The position numbers and the translations under genes are program-made. From positions 1 through 50,440 of the IMG/VR virus record IMGVR_UViG_3300010354_000130: a DNA stretch of 50,440 nt; one strand, 5' to 3'. Of the stretch, positions 43,255-50,083 are shown in pieces. The notes under the pieces are model-generated. The model worked only from the letters and a program-made list of their open reading frames with translations. It made no database searches and was not told where the DNA came from. This stretch comes from a virus. Each line of letters begins with the position of its first letter. The first letter of the stretch is position 1.

Positions 43255-43967
43255 TGTTCAATCCGATCAACCTATTCAGAGAAGAACAGCAAGATCCAAC
43301 GGCAGTGCGGGATCTCAAGGGTATATTTGAAGCACTGAACAATATACAGCAACGAGAACTAGACGATCCAAATGACGAGAAATCCGAAGAGGCACTTGAG
43401 TTCTTTGAGAACTTTGCCGTGGAGGCATATCAGCAGATCACAAAGGCAAATCAGTTCGATCAGAAGGCAAAGAGGCAGATACTCAACAACAGCATGAAGG
43501 ACTATCTCTCAAAGCAAAGAAAGCCTGGCATGATGTATACCTTCATGTATGAGCCAGAATCCGACAGGCTCGACTATTGGGACAAGTTCCCGCTCATCTT
43601 GCGAATGATCGATGAATCTGACTCCCTTACATCGATACTTGGAATCAATCTTCACTACCTTGATCCAAGAAGAAGATGGGTTCTGCTCACCAACCTGATG
43701 ACCTTGCTGAGTGGAAATGAAACCAATCCTGACAGTAGAATAATCGGTCTCAACATGAACAAGTTGGAACTTCCGCGAAATAGATATTCTAGGGTCTGCA
43801 TCCGTAGGTACAAATACGACAATATCAGAGGAAGAGCATTGATGATACCACCAGAACACTGGATAAAGATGATCTTCCTGCCAACTTATCAGTTCATAGG
43901 ACAGAAGCCCGCGCGCGTGTGGAAAGACTCCATCCGTAGAATGAGAAAGAAAGGCATACCTCTCTAA
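43254..43967 (+). CDS. Conserved T4-like phage protein of unknown function (237 aa)
   Basis: 237 aa, basic overall. A distinctive middle reads KPGMMYTFMYEPESDRLDYWDKFPLILRMIDESDSL ... ILGINLHYLDPRRRWVLLTNLMTLLSG, followed by KLELPRNRYSRVCIRRYKYDNIRGRALMIPPEHWIKMIFLPTYQF; I have seen this D-K-F-P ... N-L-H-Y pattern in hypothetical proteins of T4-like phages but cannot name the family. It is placed between head completion gp4 and the tube initiator, TGATG/TAATG-coupled on both sides, so it is probably virion or assembly related (T4 has gene 2 near 4, but I see no match). Confidence 0.7.
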   Translation: MFNPINLFREEQQDPTAVRDLKGIFEALNNIQQRELDDPNDEKSEEALEFFENFAVEAYQQITKANQFDQKAKRQILNNSMKDYLSKQRKPGMMYTFMYEPESDRLDYWDKFPLILRMIDESDSLTSILGINLHYLDPRRRWVLLTNLMTLLSGNETNPDSRIIGLNMNKLELPRNRYSRVCIRRYKYDNIRGRALMIPPEHWIKMIFLPTYQFIGQKPARVWKDSIRRMRKKGIPL

Positions 43968-44857
43968 TGGCAGACTTCCTAAGTTCACTATTCAATACCT
44001 CAGCAAACACCAGAGGCAAGGAAGAGGCGGAAGCACTTGCCAGAGCCAATGATGAACGGGCTAGTATTCGCGATACCGCTCTCTATGAAGAGATGCGTCA
44101 GAATCGGCTGAATGAGGAAATCAACTCTTTCTTTGCTCAGAGGGAGGCAGATGTCGGTGGCTACAAGAACCGAGATCGGTTCACCAGCAACATCAGTCGG
44201 CAGATAGCCCATATCAAGAACATGGGAATGTATGCAAGACCAACTCGTTTTGCATTTGACATACATGGATTGGGTACATTGGTAAACGAAAGACTCAACA
44301 GAAACTGCATGAATACATCCATTCCAGGCAGATCGATTCAATCCCAACCATATAAAATCTACGGTCCTCCCATTGAGTATGCCTATGAGGCAAACTATGC
44401 GAATGAACTTTCCATGGTGTTTCGTGTCGGTGAGGATATGTTTGAGCGCGACTTCTTTGAAGGGTGGATGGGATCGATCATATCTCCGCTGTCTGGCGAC
44501 TTGCAATATCCCGACAAGTACAGGACAACGATGAGAATCTATCAACTTGATCGGCGCGACAACAAGGTATATGCCGTCGAGTTGTACAATGTATTCTGCA
44601 AGGCAGTTGGAGAAATGGAACTTTCCACGGATTCATCGGATCAGATATCGACAATCAATGTCACATTGTCTTTCTCCGAGTATCAGACGATTGGAAAGGT
44701 AAACTTCTGGTACGATCCAAGACGAGATCGCGGAGTATCTGAACCAACAAGATCCACAAGCGATCTCATAAACGAACAGATAAGAAAGCAAGACATAGAT
44801 CAACAGGGATTCAAGCAGACAATGGGCGACTTGAACTTTATACTTGAACAACAATAA
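43967..44857 (+). CDS. gp54: Baseplate-tail tube initiator, gp54-like
   Basis: 296 aa (T4 gp54 is 320 aa). A helical N-terminal 80 residues is followed by a tail-tube type fold: TRFAFDIHGLG, KIYGPPIEYAYEANYANELSMVFRVGEDMFERDFFEGWMGSII, QYPDKYRTTMRIYQLDRRDNKVYAVELYNVFCKAVGEMELSTDSSDQISTINVTLSFSEYQTIG; gp19 and gp48 show the same strand pattern, including the terminal (E-L-S) ... (N-V-T-x-S-F) motif. gp54 lies between gp48 and the tube and starts polymerisation. Its TAATG junction follows the 237-aa gene. T4 gene 54 is beside 48; here the two are separated and on opposite strands. Confidence 0.75.
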   Translation: MADFLSSLFNTSANTRGKEEAEALARANDERASIRDTALYEEMRQNRLNEEINSFFAQREADVGGYKNRDRFTSNISRQIAHIKNMGMYARPTRFAFDIHGLGTLVNERLNRNCMNTSIPGRSIQSQPYKIYGPPIEYAYEANYANELSMVFRVGEDMFERDFFEGWMGSIISPLSGDLQYPDKYRTTMRIYQLDRRDNKVYAVELYNVFCKAVGEMELSTDSSDQISTINVTLSFSEYQTIGKVNFWYDPRRDRGVSEPTRSTSDLINEQIRKQDIDQQGFKQTMGDLNFILEQQ

Positions 44858-44870
44858 CATGGAGTAAATC

Positions 44871-45572
44871 ATGCCACTACCGAAGATCGCAACACCAAAA
44901 TATCAACTTACTATTCCTTCTAGCAAGAAGAAAGTGACCTTTAGACCGTTCCTCATGAAGGAACAGAAGGTTCTCATGATGGCAATGGAAGGAAAGAATG
45001 ATGCAGATGTCCTTCGCGCGATGTGTGACATAATCGTAAGTTGCGTGGATGGAATCGATAACATCGATACCATGCCGATGTTCGATGTCGAGTATATTTT
45101 CGCACAGTTGAGGGCAAAGTCTGTCGGAGAGAATGTCGATGTTCGCATCAAATGCCCGAAATGCAATGTAAGAAACGATGTATCTGTTCAGATAGACACG
45201 ATTGAAGTGGTGTTTCCTGAGCAAGCGAGCAACAAGATAATGTTGAACGAGAATCTTGGCATCATTCTGAAGTACCCGTCCTTATCAGATAGAAAGCCCG
45301 ATCCAAAGAAGATAAACACAGACGAGGCATTTAAGTTCATCTGTGACTCAATTGAAATGGTGTTCGACAACGAAACCACATACACAAGAAAGGACTTCAC
45401 TGCCGACGAGATCAATGAATTCATCCTTTCCATGAGTGCAGAGCAGTTTGAGAAAATAGCAAAGTTCTATGAAAGTCTGCCTTATCTGAACAAGCAGATA
45501 GACTGCAAGTGCATCGGATGCCAGCATGAGTTCAAGGTTGACTTCAGAGGGTTGCAAGATTTTTTTACCTGA
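44871..45572 (+). CDS. gp26: Baseplate hub assembly protein gp26
   Basis: 233 aa (T4 gp26 is 208 aa). The N-terminus is nearly T4-like: MPLPKIATPKYQLTIPSSKKKVTFRPFLMKEQKVLMMAMEGKN ... PMFDVEYIFAQLRAKSVGENVDVRIKCPKCN. A zinc-ribbon type pair of CxxC motifs is visible (Cys95/Cys98 and Cys214/Cys217). The ATG has a GGAG site 6 nt upstream. The C-terminus ends ...GLQDFFT at a run of seven T followed by TGA (45560-45572), in phase for a -1 frameshift into the next gene. gp26 is needed for hub assembly in T4. It is two genes upstream of the tape measure. Confidence 0.9.
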   Translation: MPLPKIATPKYQLTIPSSKKKVTFRPFLMKEQKVLMMAMEGKNDADVLRAMCDIIVSCVDGIDNIDTMPMFDVEYIFAQLRAKSVGENVDVRIKCPKCNVRNDVSVQIDTIEVVFPEQASNKIMLNENLGIILKYPSLSDRKPDPKKINTDEAFKFICDSIEMVFDNETTYTRKDFTADEINEFILSMSAEQFEKIAKFYESLPYLNKQIDCKCIGCQHEFKVDFRGLQDFFT

Positions 45573-45574
45573 TG
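45560..45574 (+). promoter_or_regulatory. Possible -1 programmed frameshift site (T TTT TTT) at gp26 stop
   Basis: Seven consecutive T (45560-45566) are read as xxT TTT TTT in the gp26 frame, a slippery X-XXY-YYZ heptamer. A -1 slip continues through the following codons into the frame of the 60-aa gene whose ATG (45572-45574) overlaps the gp26 TGA. A downstream stimulatory RNA structure was not evaluated. Confidence 0.5.
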
Positions 45575-45754
45575 CTCTGCCACGATAATCTTGCAAACAT
45601 GTATCAGACGAATTTCGCCATGATGCATCACTACAAGTATTCGCTGACGGAGTTAGAAAACATGTTTCCGTGGGAAAGAGAGATATATGTCACGCTTCTC
45701 TCCAGGCATATCAAGGAAGAGAATGAGCGCATGAAGCAGCAGAGAGCAAGATAG
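45572..45754 (+). CDS. Small tail protein (gp51 / tail assembly chaperone position)
   Basis: 60 aa, reading MLCHDNLANMYQTNFAMMHHYKYSLTELENMFPWEREIYVTLL and ending charged (RHIKEENERMKQQRAR), i.e. two helices. Its start codon overlaps the gp26 stop (TGATG) and it lies in the -1 frame of gp26 after a slippery T7 run, so it may be made both separately by reinitiation and as a gp26 fusion. In tailed phages a short -1 frameshift extension immediately before the tape measure gene is the tail assembly chaperone arrangement. T4 gene 51, a larger hub-assembly factor, is its positional analogue. No sequence match to T4 gp51 seen. Confidence 0.72.
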   Translation: MLCHDNLANMYQTNFAMMHHYKYSLTELENMFPWEREIYVTLLSRHIKEENERMKQQRAR

Positions 45755-45756
45755 AG

Positions 45757-47715
45757 ATGGCTCTACCAAATCCAAATCCAAACCAACAGCCCCCACAGTT
45801 TGGGGCATCATATCAACCATTCAGCGTGAGAGAATCAATAGGAACTCGCTCATCGGCTGCTTTCCTACAGGCACAATCAGCATTATTCTCAAGGACTCTT
45901 CTTAGGCTTATTCCTGGTTCTGGTGTATTGAGCGAAAGAGCGGACTTGAAGAGACGCGAGATGTATGAGCAAAAGGGAAGAGATCCGAACACAGGAAGAA
46001 AACTCACCAAGGATGAGATTGCGGAGAAGGAAGCAAGAAAATATGATCGCGGCGCGCTCGGTGAAATACGCGATCTTTATGTCAATGAGTATCAAGACAG
46101 CGGAGTTCCAGTCTTCGTCAAGCCAGATACCGATGCTTGGTTCCTCCTTGAGAGAATGGAGATCATTCTCACCGACATCAAGAATGCGCTCACGGCTGGT
46201 GGAATGGGAGTTTTCTCCGTTGGTGGTAACTATGCCTCAAACATGGCAGGATCATCTGAAATTCTTGATCCTGATGGCGATCCAGGAAACCTGACTCTTG
46301 CAGATGTTCCTACTCCAAATGATGAAAGAGAACTTGCAAGACAGGAAGCGATGGACGAGAGGGAGCGCGAGGACGACGAGGATCAACTTGAGGCAGAGGA
46401 AAGACAGCAGGGATTCTTCAGCAAACTATTCGGTAGTCTGAGAGGCAAAGAGGAAGATAGCAGTAATAGTTTATTCGGCAGTGTACTATCCGCTTTATCA
46501 GGTCTTGGAAGTCTCATATCCGATCTGTTCGCCAAGTACATTGGTGGCATGCTCATTGGAAAACTTCTTGGTGGCGGTGGCTTAGGAGGAGCGGGTGGCT
46601 TGGGTGGTCGATTGAAGGGTGTGGTCTCGGGTGCAGGTAGGATGATCGGTGGTGCGGGAAGAGCAATTGGCTCGGCAATAGCAGGATCAGCCGCAGGAAA
46701 AACATTCGCACAGGCAGGTGGAGAGATTGCAAAGGGTGCAAGGGCAACTGGCGGTGCCATCGCCCGCGCAGGAAGCGCAATCGCTGGTTATGGAGGCAAG
46801 GCACTTGGTGCAGTGAAGGCAGTGGGATCTGACTTGCTGGCATCAAGAGCCAGAAGTGGAGGAGGATTCCTCAGCAGGGCTTTCAATGCAGTCAAGGACA
46901 CTGCCACCAAACTGAATCCAACAAAGGCAATCACAGGTTTCGTATCAAAGAATGCTGGTAAGTTGCTCAAGGGTCTGACAAGCGTGCCTGGTCTCAGTGC
47001 AGCCATCTCTGGTGTCATTGGTGCATTGAACATACGGAGCATTGCAAATGATGTGTCATTATCGATTGATGAAAAGAAGGAAGCAATAGGAAAGGAACTC
47101 GGTGCAGTTCTTGGTAGTGCAATCGGATCAATCGGTGGTGGTGCGCTTGGTTCACTGCTGCCTATTCCAGGAATAGGAACTATTCTAGGAACATTCGGTG
47201 GAGGATGGGTCGGTGAGAAGGTAGGCGAGGCTCTTGCAGAGGCGATTGGACCAAGAGGAATCTATGATTTCGTTGAGTCGATACCAGGAATCGGCAATCT
47301 TGTTGCAATTGATGGCGATTCGGCTGATGGAAAGGCAGAAGCAAAAGCAGATGCTGCTGCCGAAGCACAGAAAACAGGAGATCAAACAACCGACCCCCTC
47401 AATGCAGAGACTCCAAGCAGCGCACCCGTGATAAGCACTCCTGCTGCATCGATGGCTCCACCACCGCCAGCAACCGTTCCACTCTCATCGGGAGAAGGAA
47501 TGTCAACGGCACCGATGGATATTCCATCCTCGGCGGCAGAGAATGCAGCACTCAAGACCGCACCACCAATAATCGCACCCACGAACAATACCGTGGCAAA
47601 TGTGAGCAACAACAACAGTGCAACTTTCGTCGGTCCCGTGACGGCATCGCGAGGAACAGGAATCGACATGGATTCGGGTTACAATGGAAGCGGGTTTAGG
47701 CTGTCCCTGACATGA
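45757..47715 (+). CDS. Probable tail tape-measure protein (gp29 position)
   Basis: 652 aa (T4 gp29 is 590 aa). N-terminal 200 residues are charged and helical; residues about 255-340 and 420-510 are very Gly/Ala-rich with hydrophobic zipper-like stretches (GGMLIGKLLGGGGLGGAGG..., GSAIGSIGGGALGSLLPIPGIGTILG, IYDFVESIPGIGNLVAIDG) able to insert in a membrane, a usual feature of tape measures and of proteins released through the tail. It follows gp26 and the small gene, the T4 order 51-27-28-29. The C-terminus (540-640) is Ala/Pro/Thr/Ser-rich with a few Asn runs. No identifiable lysozyme or protease domain is visible. Confidence 0.58.
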   Translation: MALPNPNPNQQPPQFGASYQPFSVRESIGTRSSAAFLQAQSALFSRTLLRLIPGSGVLSERADLKRREMYEQKGRDPNTGRKLTKDEIAEKEARKYDRGALGEIRDLYVNEYQDSGVPVFVKPDTDAWFLLERMEIILTDIKNALTAGGMGVFSVGGNYASNMAGSSEILDPDGDPGNLTLADVPTPNDERELARQEAMDEREREDDEDQLEAEERQQGFFSKLFGSLRGKEEDSSNSLFGSVLSALSGLGSLISDLFAKYIGGMLIGKLLGGGGLGGAGGLGGRLKGVVSGAGRMIGGAGRAIGSAIAGSAAGKTFAQAGGEIAKGARATGGAIARAGSAIAGYGGKALGAVKAVGSDLLASRARSGGGFLSRAFNAVKDTATKLNPTKAITGFVSKNAGKLLKGLTSVPGLSAAISGVIGALNIRSIANDVSLSIDEKKEAIGKELGAVLGSAIGSIGGGALGSLLPIPGIGTILGTFGGGWVGEKVGEALAEAIGPRGIYDFVESIPGIGNLVAIDGDSADGKAEAKADAAAEAQKTGDQTTDPLNAETPSSAPVISTPAASMAPPPPATVPLSSGEGMSTAPMDIPSSAAENAALKTAPPIIAPTNNTVANVSNNNSATFVGPVTASRGTGIDMDSGYNGSGFRLSLT

Positions 47716-49093: not shown

Positions 49094-49168
49094 GCGCCGT
49101 GGGAGGTCTTGGCATCCTCAGCCTGATTTATAACCAGGTAAGACTAGGTTCGAATCCTAGACGGCGTA
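49094..49168 (+). tRNA. tRNA, probably tRNA-Ile (anticodon UAU)
   Basis: 75 nt. Acceptor arm GCGCCGT pairs with ACGGCGT (one G-U at 1:72) and the discriminator is A. D-arm stem GAGG/CCTC with GG-containing loop and T-arm CTAGG/CCTAG with loop TTCGAAT are perfect. The anticodon arm is weaker: CCTGA/CCAGG with an A-C apposition next to the loop and a loop TTTATAA that would place UAU at 34-36 (Ile, AUA codons); two connecting nucleotides lie before it. An alternative pairing leaves a 9-nt loop. So the tRNA is secure, its identity less so. No CCA encoded. Confidence 0.65.
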
Positions 49169-49234
49169 TTGTGAGCGAGATGGCTTGGATCAGTCTCTTG
49201 CTCGGTTTCAAGTGTGATCCATGGAGATTATGAC

Positions 49235-49531
49235 ATGTTTGACAAGAATAGCGTGTTCAAGAGCGTTGCAGTCCTGTCCGCACTCGGCTTTGTTGCCTTC
49301 TCGTTCCTCTTCCCTGAGATCGCGAATGCACAGATGAAGGCGAACTTCTGCCTCATCGTTGGTCTTGGCTCCCTTGCCATCTACTTCTACACGAAGGGAA
49401 GCAACGAGGTCGAGTTCAATGAGCGTGACAGCGTGTACCGTCACATCGACAGCGTCACGGATGGGCTTCAGCGTCAGATCGATGACATTCATCGCGAACT
49501 TGACTGCTGCAAGAAGCAGAAGAGCAAGTGA
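49235..49531 (+). CDS. Small membrane protein with C-terminal coiled coil (98 aa)
   Basis: Start at ATG 49235, 8 nt after GGAG (49223-49226). Two hydrophobic segments, about 9-28 (VFKSVAVLSALGFVAFSFLF) and 37-53 (NFCLIVGLGSLAIYFYT), then a hydrophilic C-terminal domain (about 55-98) with heptad-like spacing (VYRHIDSVTDGLQRQIDDIHRELDCC). The first segment could alternatively be a cleaved signal (EIANA site). A membrane-anchored coiled-coil oligomer is inferred; I see no family signature. It sits between the first tRNA and the tRNA cluster, on the same strand. Confidence 0.6.
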   Translation: MFDKNSVFKSVAVLSALGFVAFSFLFPEIANAQMKANFCLIVGLGSLAIYFYTKGSNEVEFNERDSVYRHIDSVTDGLQRQIDDIHRELDCCKKQKSK

Positions 49532-49607
49532 GTAGAGGGGTGTCTGTCTACCCTACCCACAAGTGACAGCAGAGGGGCGCGCAATTCTGCGAATCACGCG
49601 CTTTGGT

Positions 49608-49679
49608 GCGAATGTAACTCAGCGGTAGAGTCTCGGTTTTCCAAACCGATGGTCGTGGGTTCGAATCCCATCGTTCGCT
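49608..49679 (+). tRNA. tRNA-Gly (anticodon UCC)
   Basis: 72 nt. Acceptor GCGAATG/CGTTCGC, D-stem with ACTC/GAGT and a GCGGTA loop, anticodon stem TCGGT/ACCGA with loop TTTCCAA (UCC), T-arm GTGGG/CCCAT-type with loop TTCGAAT, discriminator T. GGA is the cognate codon. No CCA encoded. Confidence 0.93.
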
Positions 49680-49684
49680 TTCAT

Positions 49685-49776
49685 GCGTAGTATCAGTCGA
49701 GTAGCGCACTCGGAGGCTCATCTAGGATTGCAATGTATATTGCAATTGAGAAAGGGTTCAAGTCCCTCACTACGCT
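49685..49776 (+). ncRNA. tRNA-like element lacking a canonical anticodon arm
   Basis: A perfect 7-bp acceptor-type stem (GCGTAGT with ACTACGC) and an adjoining T-arm (GGG/CCC core, loop TTCAAGT) are tRNA-like. The 60 nt between acceptor and T-arm hold a 5-bp hairpin (TCGAG/CTCGG, loop TAGCGCA) and a 7-bp hairpin (ATTGCAA/TTGCAAT with a 6-nt loop TGTATA). Scanning every 5-bp stem with a 7-nt loop gave only the former, whose loop lacks U33. Could be a degenerate class II tRNA, a tRNA-like stable RNA or a mis-fold. Confidence 0.5.
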
Positions 49777-49778
49777 TT

Positions 49779-49841
49779 TGCAATCTCATGAGGCTACTAC
49801 CCTTCAATGCCCGTTGGACTTGCAACGGTCATGAGATTGCA
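49779..49841 (+). ncRNA. Structured RNA element, long stem with nested hairpin
   Basis: A perfect 13-bp stem (TGCAATCTCATGA at 49779-49791 with TCATGAGATTGCA at 49829-49841) encloses a 6-bp hairpin (CCGTTG/CAACGG at 49811-49816 and 49823-49828, loop GACTTG), stacked on its 3' side, and a 19-nt single-stranded bulge on the 5' side. It lies between tRNA genes, so it would be in the same transcript. It has no T-tract after it, so it is unlikely to be a rho-independent terminator. Confidence 0.5.
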
Positions 49842-49846
49842 TTTAT

Positions 49847-49917
49847 TGTCCGATTGTGTAACGGTAGCACAAGAGATTCTGGTTCTCTTTGTCCTAGTTC
49901 GAATCTAGGTCGGACAA
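49847..49917 (+). tRNA. tRNA-Gln (anticodon CUG)
   Basis: 71 nt. Acceptor TGTCCGA/TCGGACA (T1-A72, usual for tRNA-Gln), discriminator A; D-stem GTGT/GCAC, anticodon stem AGAGA/TCTCT with loop TTCTGGT giving CUG, T-arm CCTAG/CTAGG with loop TTCGAAT. No CCA encoded. Confidence 0.9.
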
Positions 49918-49920
49918 CTT

Positions 49921-50001
49921 GGTTGTGTACTCAAGTGGCAACGAGGGCAGACTGTAAATCTGCTGACATAGTCTTCGGGGGTTCGAGTCCCTCCGCAACC
50001 A
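49921..50001 (+). tRNA. tRNA-Tyr (anticodon GUA), class II
   Basis: 81 nt. Acceptor GGTTGTG/CGCAACC, anticodon stem GCAGA/TCTGC with loop CTGTAAA (GUA), an extended variable arm (TGACATAGTCTTC) as in bacterial tRNA-Tyr, and T-arm GGGGG/CCCTC-type with loop TTCGAGT; discriminator A. Only 3 nt separate it from tRNA-Gln. Confidence 0.93.
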
Positions 50002-50006
50002 TTCAA

Positions 50007-50078
50007 GCCGCCATAGTATAAAGGCTATTACCGTTGATTTGTAATCATCAAATCTGAGTTCGATTCTCAGTGGTGGCT
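50007..50078 (+). tRNA. tRNA-Thr (anticodon UGU)
   Basis: 72 nt. Acceptor GCCGCCA/TGGTGGC (one G-U), anticodon arm GTTGA/TCATC with one U-U apposition and loop TTTGTAA (UGU), T-arm CTGAG/CTCAG with loop TTCGATT, discriminator T. The D-stem is weak (GTA/TAC). No CCA encoded. Confidence 0.87.
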
Positions 50079-50083
50079 TTAAA

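Follow-up and report, generated by a model that had tools for sequence, protein, structure and literature searches.

A probable programmed -1 ribosomal frameshift in the proposed gene for a tail assembly chaperone in a T4-superfamily phage

We report a gene junction in an uncultured T4-superfamily phage that very probably constitutes a programmed -1 ribosomal frameshift in the gene for the tail assembly chaperone (TAC), yielding a short and a long form of the protein. Most ribosomes would stop at the TGA at position 45570 and release the short chaperone, gp26, of 233 aa, and a minority would slip on the heptamer T TTT TTT into the -1 frame, generating a 294-aa gp26-gp51 fusion. A downstream RNA stem that begins 7 nt past the heptamer may hold ribosomes up, and an upstream Shine-Dalgarno (SD)-like sequence may aid the slip. 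If the two forms work as those of lambda G/GT do, the short one would coat the tape measure protein, and the long one, made in smaller amounts, would recruit tail tube subunits via its extra C-terminal part. We infer the occurrence of slippage, its rate, the roles of the stem and the SD-like sequence, and the chaperone function. The frameshift reading, which follows the original prediction made on this DNA, is adopted because the heptamer and its phase are conserved, many relatives lack a start codon for the second frame, the downstream stem covaries and T4 gp51, an in-frame version of the fusion, is homologous across the junction.

The proposed frameshift explains why a small 'gp51' gene is omitted or arbitrarily started in several cyanophage and other T4-like genomes, and links a large group of T4-like phages to the chaperone frameshift common to most long-tailed phages. 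It also offers a testable route for the loss of the frameshift in T4, and a wealth of natural variants that combine a constant slippery site with a changing RNA stimulator.

Reading frames at the gp26 junction

The analysed window is a virus record of 50,440 bases (IMG/VR IMGVR_UViG_3300010354_000130, positions 1 to 50,440), in which the junction comprises the following elements.

44871 to 45572, plus strand: gp26-type gene of 233 aa, proposed short tail assembly chaperone (Pfam T4_baseplate PF12322, E=4.8e-59; phrog_150 columns 5-233 of 282)
45560 to 45566, plus strand: slippery heptamer T TTT TTT, in phase with gp26 (T TTT TTN in 128 of 131 representative relatives)
45570 to 45572, plus strand: gp26 stop codon TGA, one sense codon (ACC) past the heptamer, a spacing identical in 108 of 128 relatives
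45566 to 45754, plus strand: -1 frame part of the fusion, 62 codons plus stop, which would give the proposed long chaperone its gp51-like C-terminal domain (phrog_634, E=1.9e-27; phrog_150 columns 236-282)
45572 to 45754, plus strand: 60-aa open-reading frame (ORF) taken alone, with its ATG inside TGATG (no SD at normal spacing; ATG changed to ACG in relative L079)

Direct reading of the sequence gives CAA GAT TTT TTT ACC TGA as the 3′ end of gp26, in agreement with the heptamer coordinates, phase and gene order originally described. The -1 frame is open from 45542 to its stop codon at 45752-45754, which bears out the claim that a -1 slip runs into the following 60-aa gene. The reading after the slip is TTT TTT TAC CTG ATG CTC, leading directly into the 60-aa gp51-like ORF, and slippage of both Phe codons would produce the 294-aa protein with the junction ...QDFF-YLMLCHDNLANMYQTNF...

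Long T runs are avoided in the window, since TTTTTTY is seen 4 times on both strands against 20.4 expected from dinucleotide content (about five times rarer). Phe codons in six neighbouring genes are divided between TTC and TTT in a ratio of 52:17, and both junction Phe codons are TTT. From the rarity of T runs and this codon preference, the junction heptamer is more than a chance occurrence within the window.

Conservation of the slippery run among relatives

Relatives were drawn from IMG/VR and from annotated phages, and collapsed at 90% identity across the junction to 131 representatives. Alignment of the junction, which had been proposed as a check, found the slippery heptamer and the -1 phase conserved in these non-redundant relatives: T TTT TTN lies in phase at the same place in 128 of the 131 (last base C in 100, T in 24, G in 2 and A in 2), counts inflated by kinship, as the representatives are still related to one another. 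The three representatives without an in-phase run are L073 (an Ackermannviridae phage), L138, where the run is shifted by one base, and L072. The displaced poly-T of L138 sits near the gp26 stop (GAA TTT TTT TAA TGG), and a slip there would involve the stop codon; L072, from Aeromonas phage 31, is a spurious ORF on the strand opposite other genes. Three Ackermannviridae-like records (L068, L070 and L073) keep a gp51-like -1 frame after gp26 and lack T TTT TTN, carrying CTT TTT G, ATT TTC or GTT TTC in its place. The signal is therefore not common to every gp26 homologue, and a different slip site or mechanism may operate in these records.

The codon preceding the run ends in T for any amino acid (GAT, AGT, TCT, AAT, GCT). 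With the amino acids and the local codon usage taken as fixed, the choice of NNT TTT has a naive probability of about 10^-39; a smaller set, for which 85% was the collapsing threshold, gives about 10^-11, and both figures are uncorrected for shared ancestry. In AF3 and in L111-L113 the second Phe has become Leu through substitution of the seventh base alone (giving TTG or TTA), with the six Ts intact; it is therefore the slippery run that is kept, and not the Phe-Phe pair. The zero-frame stop lies 3 nt past the heptamer in 108 of the 128 representatives and 0-24 nt past it in the remainder. Where the stop falls up to 24 nt after the heptamer (L101, L104-L107, L126, L161, L163, L180, L184, L187 and L191), the short form gains a tail and the heptamer stays. 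Judged by comparison of the relatives' sequences, very distant ones included, the predicted programmed frameshift, and not chance, is very probably what this pattern reflects.

Capacity of the second frame for independent initiation

The -1 frame was scanned for ATG, GTG and TTG from the point where it opens up to 50 nt past the heptamer, and 55 of the 128 representatives have none of them; in these, any possible start lies downstream of the first conserved residues (ALSHDSLENYY.TNF). The second ORF is unannotated in the GenBank records of S-CAM1, LPCS28, vB_AdhaM_G2 and ACP17. The original prediction had the 60-aa gene starting within the stop codon: the ATG at 45572 does overlap the TGA in the window, but it is not conserved, and L079 has TAACGC at this place. 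Among the window's nearest relatives L078 and L080 retain the ATG and L079 has ACG; the element maintained by selection is therefore not the ATG. No SD was found at a normal distance from the window ATG, the nearest candidate, GAGGG, being about 20 nt away. The -1 frame thus continues into a conserved ORF that, with 55 of 128 representatives start-less and the ATG not conserved, cannot in general start by itself. Homologues without a slippery run and with independent ribosome-binding sites had been named as the pattern that would speak against slippage, and what we find is the run in 128 of 131 representatives and no start codon in 55 of 128.

No annotated joined CDS across the junction was found in the annotated phage records examined. 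A zero-frame fusion in the window's lineage was considered and ruled out, the 60 best fusion matches in annotated phages all being in two pieces.

An ATG at the stop codon recurs across unrelated lineages, which is what would be expected if both processes took place, with the frameshift making the fusion and re-initiation making a free gp51 peptide that has its own role in ATG-bearing lineages. We regard this as rather unlikely: since large clades have no such ATG, a free peptide cannot be a general requirement, and such a scheme would add to the frameshift reading rather than replace it. In the window, where the ATG overlaps the stop, re-initiation might contribute some gp51 as well. Much less probable again is that termination-re-initiation at TGATG gives separate translation of the 60-aa gene, in which case the T run would be incidental or only the trace of a conserved Asp-Phe-Phe. 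The stop and an ATG do share bases in the window, L001, L078, L080 and several annotated phages, and 59 of the 128 representatives have some ATG within the region scanned for starts, but separate translation is hard to reconcile with the 55 representatives that lack ATG, GTG and TTG, with the loss of the ATG in L079 and with a window ORF that has no SD at normal spacing. It also accounts poorly for the six Ts that remain where the second Phe is Leu, and for T4 gp51, in which this segment is joined to a gp26-like part with no change of frame. We thus retain the programmed frameshift as the preferred reading.

RNA elements flanking the heptamer

Candidate stimulatory elements for the frameshift lie on both sides of the heptamer.

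45546 to 45551, plus strand: SD-like AGAGGG, a candidate 5′ stimulator 8 nt ahead of the heptamer (duplex with the 16S tail at -6.3 kcal/mol, within the best 7% of gp26 positions; relatives have a similar element)
45574 to 45582, plus strand: 5′ arm GCTCTGCCA of a proposed stimulatory stem of class B, 7 nt past the heptamer (covariation across 12 sequences)
45645 to 45653, plus strand: 3′ arm TGACGGAGT of the proposed class B stem (8 of its 9 pairs are present in the window)

The stem tests covered nested structures. The downstream 124 nt fold more stably than synonymous resamplings, with a mean z of -2.26 over 126 sequences, and control windows inside gp26 give a weaker mean of -0.79. A stem with its 5′ arm 3-9 nt past the heptamer reaches p<=0.05 in 69 of the 128 representatives. 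The relatives present three stem classes (A, B and C), and because these classes differ a single consensus structure for all lineages is weak (-0.77 kcal/mol).

Class A stems (CCCUUUC:GAAAGGG) start 6 nt past the heptamer and close about 100 nt, with at least 6 of 7 pairs formed in 44 representatives and compensations of the GCC/GGC and CUC/GAG types; the otherwise uncommon codons GCC, CTT and AGG are fixed in both arms. In the clade of alignment A3 the class A stem is fully paired with no two-sided changes, the compensations being present only in the wider set. Class B stems, to which the window belongs, close about 80 nt. In the 12 class B sequences 89.8% of cells are paired, a percentage biased upward by the fact that the sequences were picked partly for showing such a stem, and the two-sided changes observed in five of the nine pairs are the stronger evidence. 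Covariation in this class amounts to 0.308, versus 0.148 when shuffled (0/500) and at most 0.071 when slid. One representative (L158) has a wholly different yet perfect stem at the same place (GUUCGGCUA:UAGCCGAAC). Class C is a local hairpin, found for example in Sf-FR1 and S-CAM1.

The class B stem of the window contains one mismatch and one G-U pair. The stretch 45572-45656, chosen with the stem in view, folds at a z of -3.5, and the unselected 124 nt of the window reach only p 0.07 against synonymous resampling. The region initially suggested for folding, 45567-45640, is not special (z -0.45) because it cuts off the 3′ arm, but the longer stretch does contain the covarying stem 45574-45582:45645-45653.

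Duplexes between the SD-like site and the 16S tail average -5.9 kcal/mol, versus -3.2 kcal/mol elsewhere in gp26, a signal for which a conserved Gly codon accounts in part.

The homopolymer of seven Ts in the window would suit slippage of RNA polymerase instead of the ribosome as the source of the fusion, but this is highly improbable, as polymerase slippage usually requires longer runs, the run consists of six Ts followed by C in 100 of the 128 relatives with no selection for longer runs, and the downstream stems are spaced as they would be for ribosomes, in agreement with tandem tRNA slippage.

Relation of the fusion to T4 gp26 and gp51

Taken alone, gp26 matches phrog_150 over columns 5-233 of 282 (214 bits), and the fusion matches it over columns 5-281 of 282 in one stretch (254 bits). 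T4 gp51 spans columns 13-280 of the same family, and its alignment to the fusion profile, 242 columns long, continues straight across the junction. The short form aligns with T4 gp26, and both T4 proteins match PF12322. Since the fusion is collinear with T4 gp51 across the junction, the short and long forms appear to have a gene each in T4; gp26- and gp51-type genes are separate and divergent in T4, ZX14 and Aeromonas phage 31. The T4-type arrangement, with the long form as its own intact gene, was not found in the window, where the gp51 part lies in the -1 frame directly after gp26; the record, a 50-kb fragment, has one PF12322 match and no second.

The simplest history would have the frameshift arrangement first and T4-type phages then replacing it with a second in-frame gene, a direction that we infer. 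Opinion is evenly balanced on the broader proposal that a nearly fixed slippery run is combined with at least three interchangeable 3′ stems (a local hairpin, one closing about 80 nt and one closing about 100 nt), each starting 3-9 nt past the heptamer, that this frameshift arrangement is ancestral, and that the separate gp26 and gp51 of T4 arose from it by duplication with in-frame fusion.

Neighbouring genes and chaperone function

Two genes flank the junction pair.

43967 to 44857, plus strand: upstream neighbour, tail tube-like protein (phrog_45 tail tube, E=1.8e-33)
45757 to 47715, plus strand: downstream neighbour, 652 aa, Gly/Ala-rich, tape measure candidate by position only (weak phrog_1047 match over a Gly/Ala-rich stretch)

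The pair had been placed just before the tape measure gene; the ORF at 45757-47715 is indeed next in order, but it takes that label from its position only, and BLASTP of the 652-aa product against the HTVC008M putative tape measure and its Melnitz-3 counterpart gave no convincing match. An AlphaFold2 model of gp26 (mean pLDDT 87) has no significant match in the PDB. The highest probabilities among the matches listed in the fold search belong to two HK97 tail assembly chaperone chains (2ob9) and to 3fgx (0.54, 0.41 and 0.30), none significant with E about 1 or more. Tail assembly chaperone is the best reading of the gene, from its tail tube neighbour, these fold matches and the T4 literature as conveyed by citing papers. 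Further downstream, the window holds five tRNA genes at 49094-50079 (Ile-TAT, Gly-TCC, Gln-CTG, Tyr-GTA and Thr-TGT), and several short ORFs overlapping them are probably spurious.

Comparison with known systems

A 2016 review (PMC5009743) describes G-T frameshifting as conserved in long-tailed phages 'except T4'. Later papers credit Vladimirov, Gautam & Davidson 2022 (Virology 566:9-15) with T4-like TAC genes and poly-T slippery signals (PMC10885494, PMC12846349): some T4-like phages are described as having a short gene and a longer fusion gene (PMC10885494), and poly-T sequences as known -1 signals in the TAC-N genes of T4-like phages (PMC12846349). The original view that such a frameshift was undescribed for T4-type gp26 is, on the word of these citing papers, probably out of date. 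No description of three stem classes with a fixed run and a free last base was met in the literature searched, which is weak evidence of novelty, the 2022 study being covered via citing papers. A literature search for such a frameshift in cyanophages turned up only the phage Adele paper (PMC12846349).

The chaperone frameshift reported there for Vandenendeviridae/Andersonviridae resembles the present one, as described, in its conserved -1 extension past a poly-T motif late in the short chaperone gene and in the misannotation of its second part, but it belongs to other phage families and uses the motif GTTTTT. The parallel with lambda G/GT (PMC5009743), already drawn in the original prediction, holds in that short and long tail assembly chaperones are the best reading: in both systems the first ORF has a slippery heptamer close to its end and an extension in the -1 frame, and the pair described here follows a tail tube-like gene and precedes an ORF that is a tape measure candidate by position. 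Unlike lambda G/GT, the proteins here are of unrelated sequence, with zinc-ribbon-like Cys pairs in gp26, the heptamer is T TTT TTN and the stop usually follows one codon later. T4 gp26 and gp51 belong to the same protein families as the window's short form and fusion (PF12322), but T4 carries them as two separate, divergent genes, whereas the long form of the window would exist only through a change of frame. The frameshift principle is thus known, reportedly also in T4-like phages, and the phage analysed here adds a probable further case.
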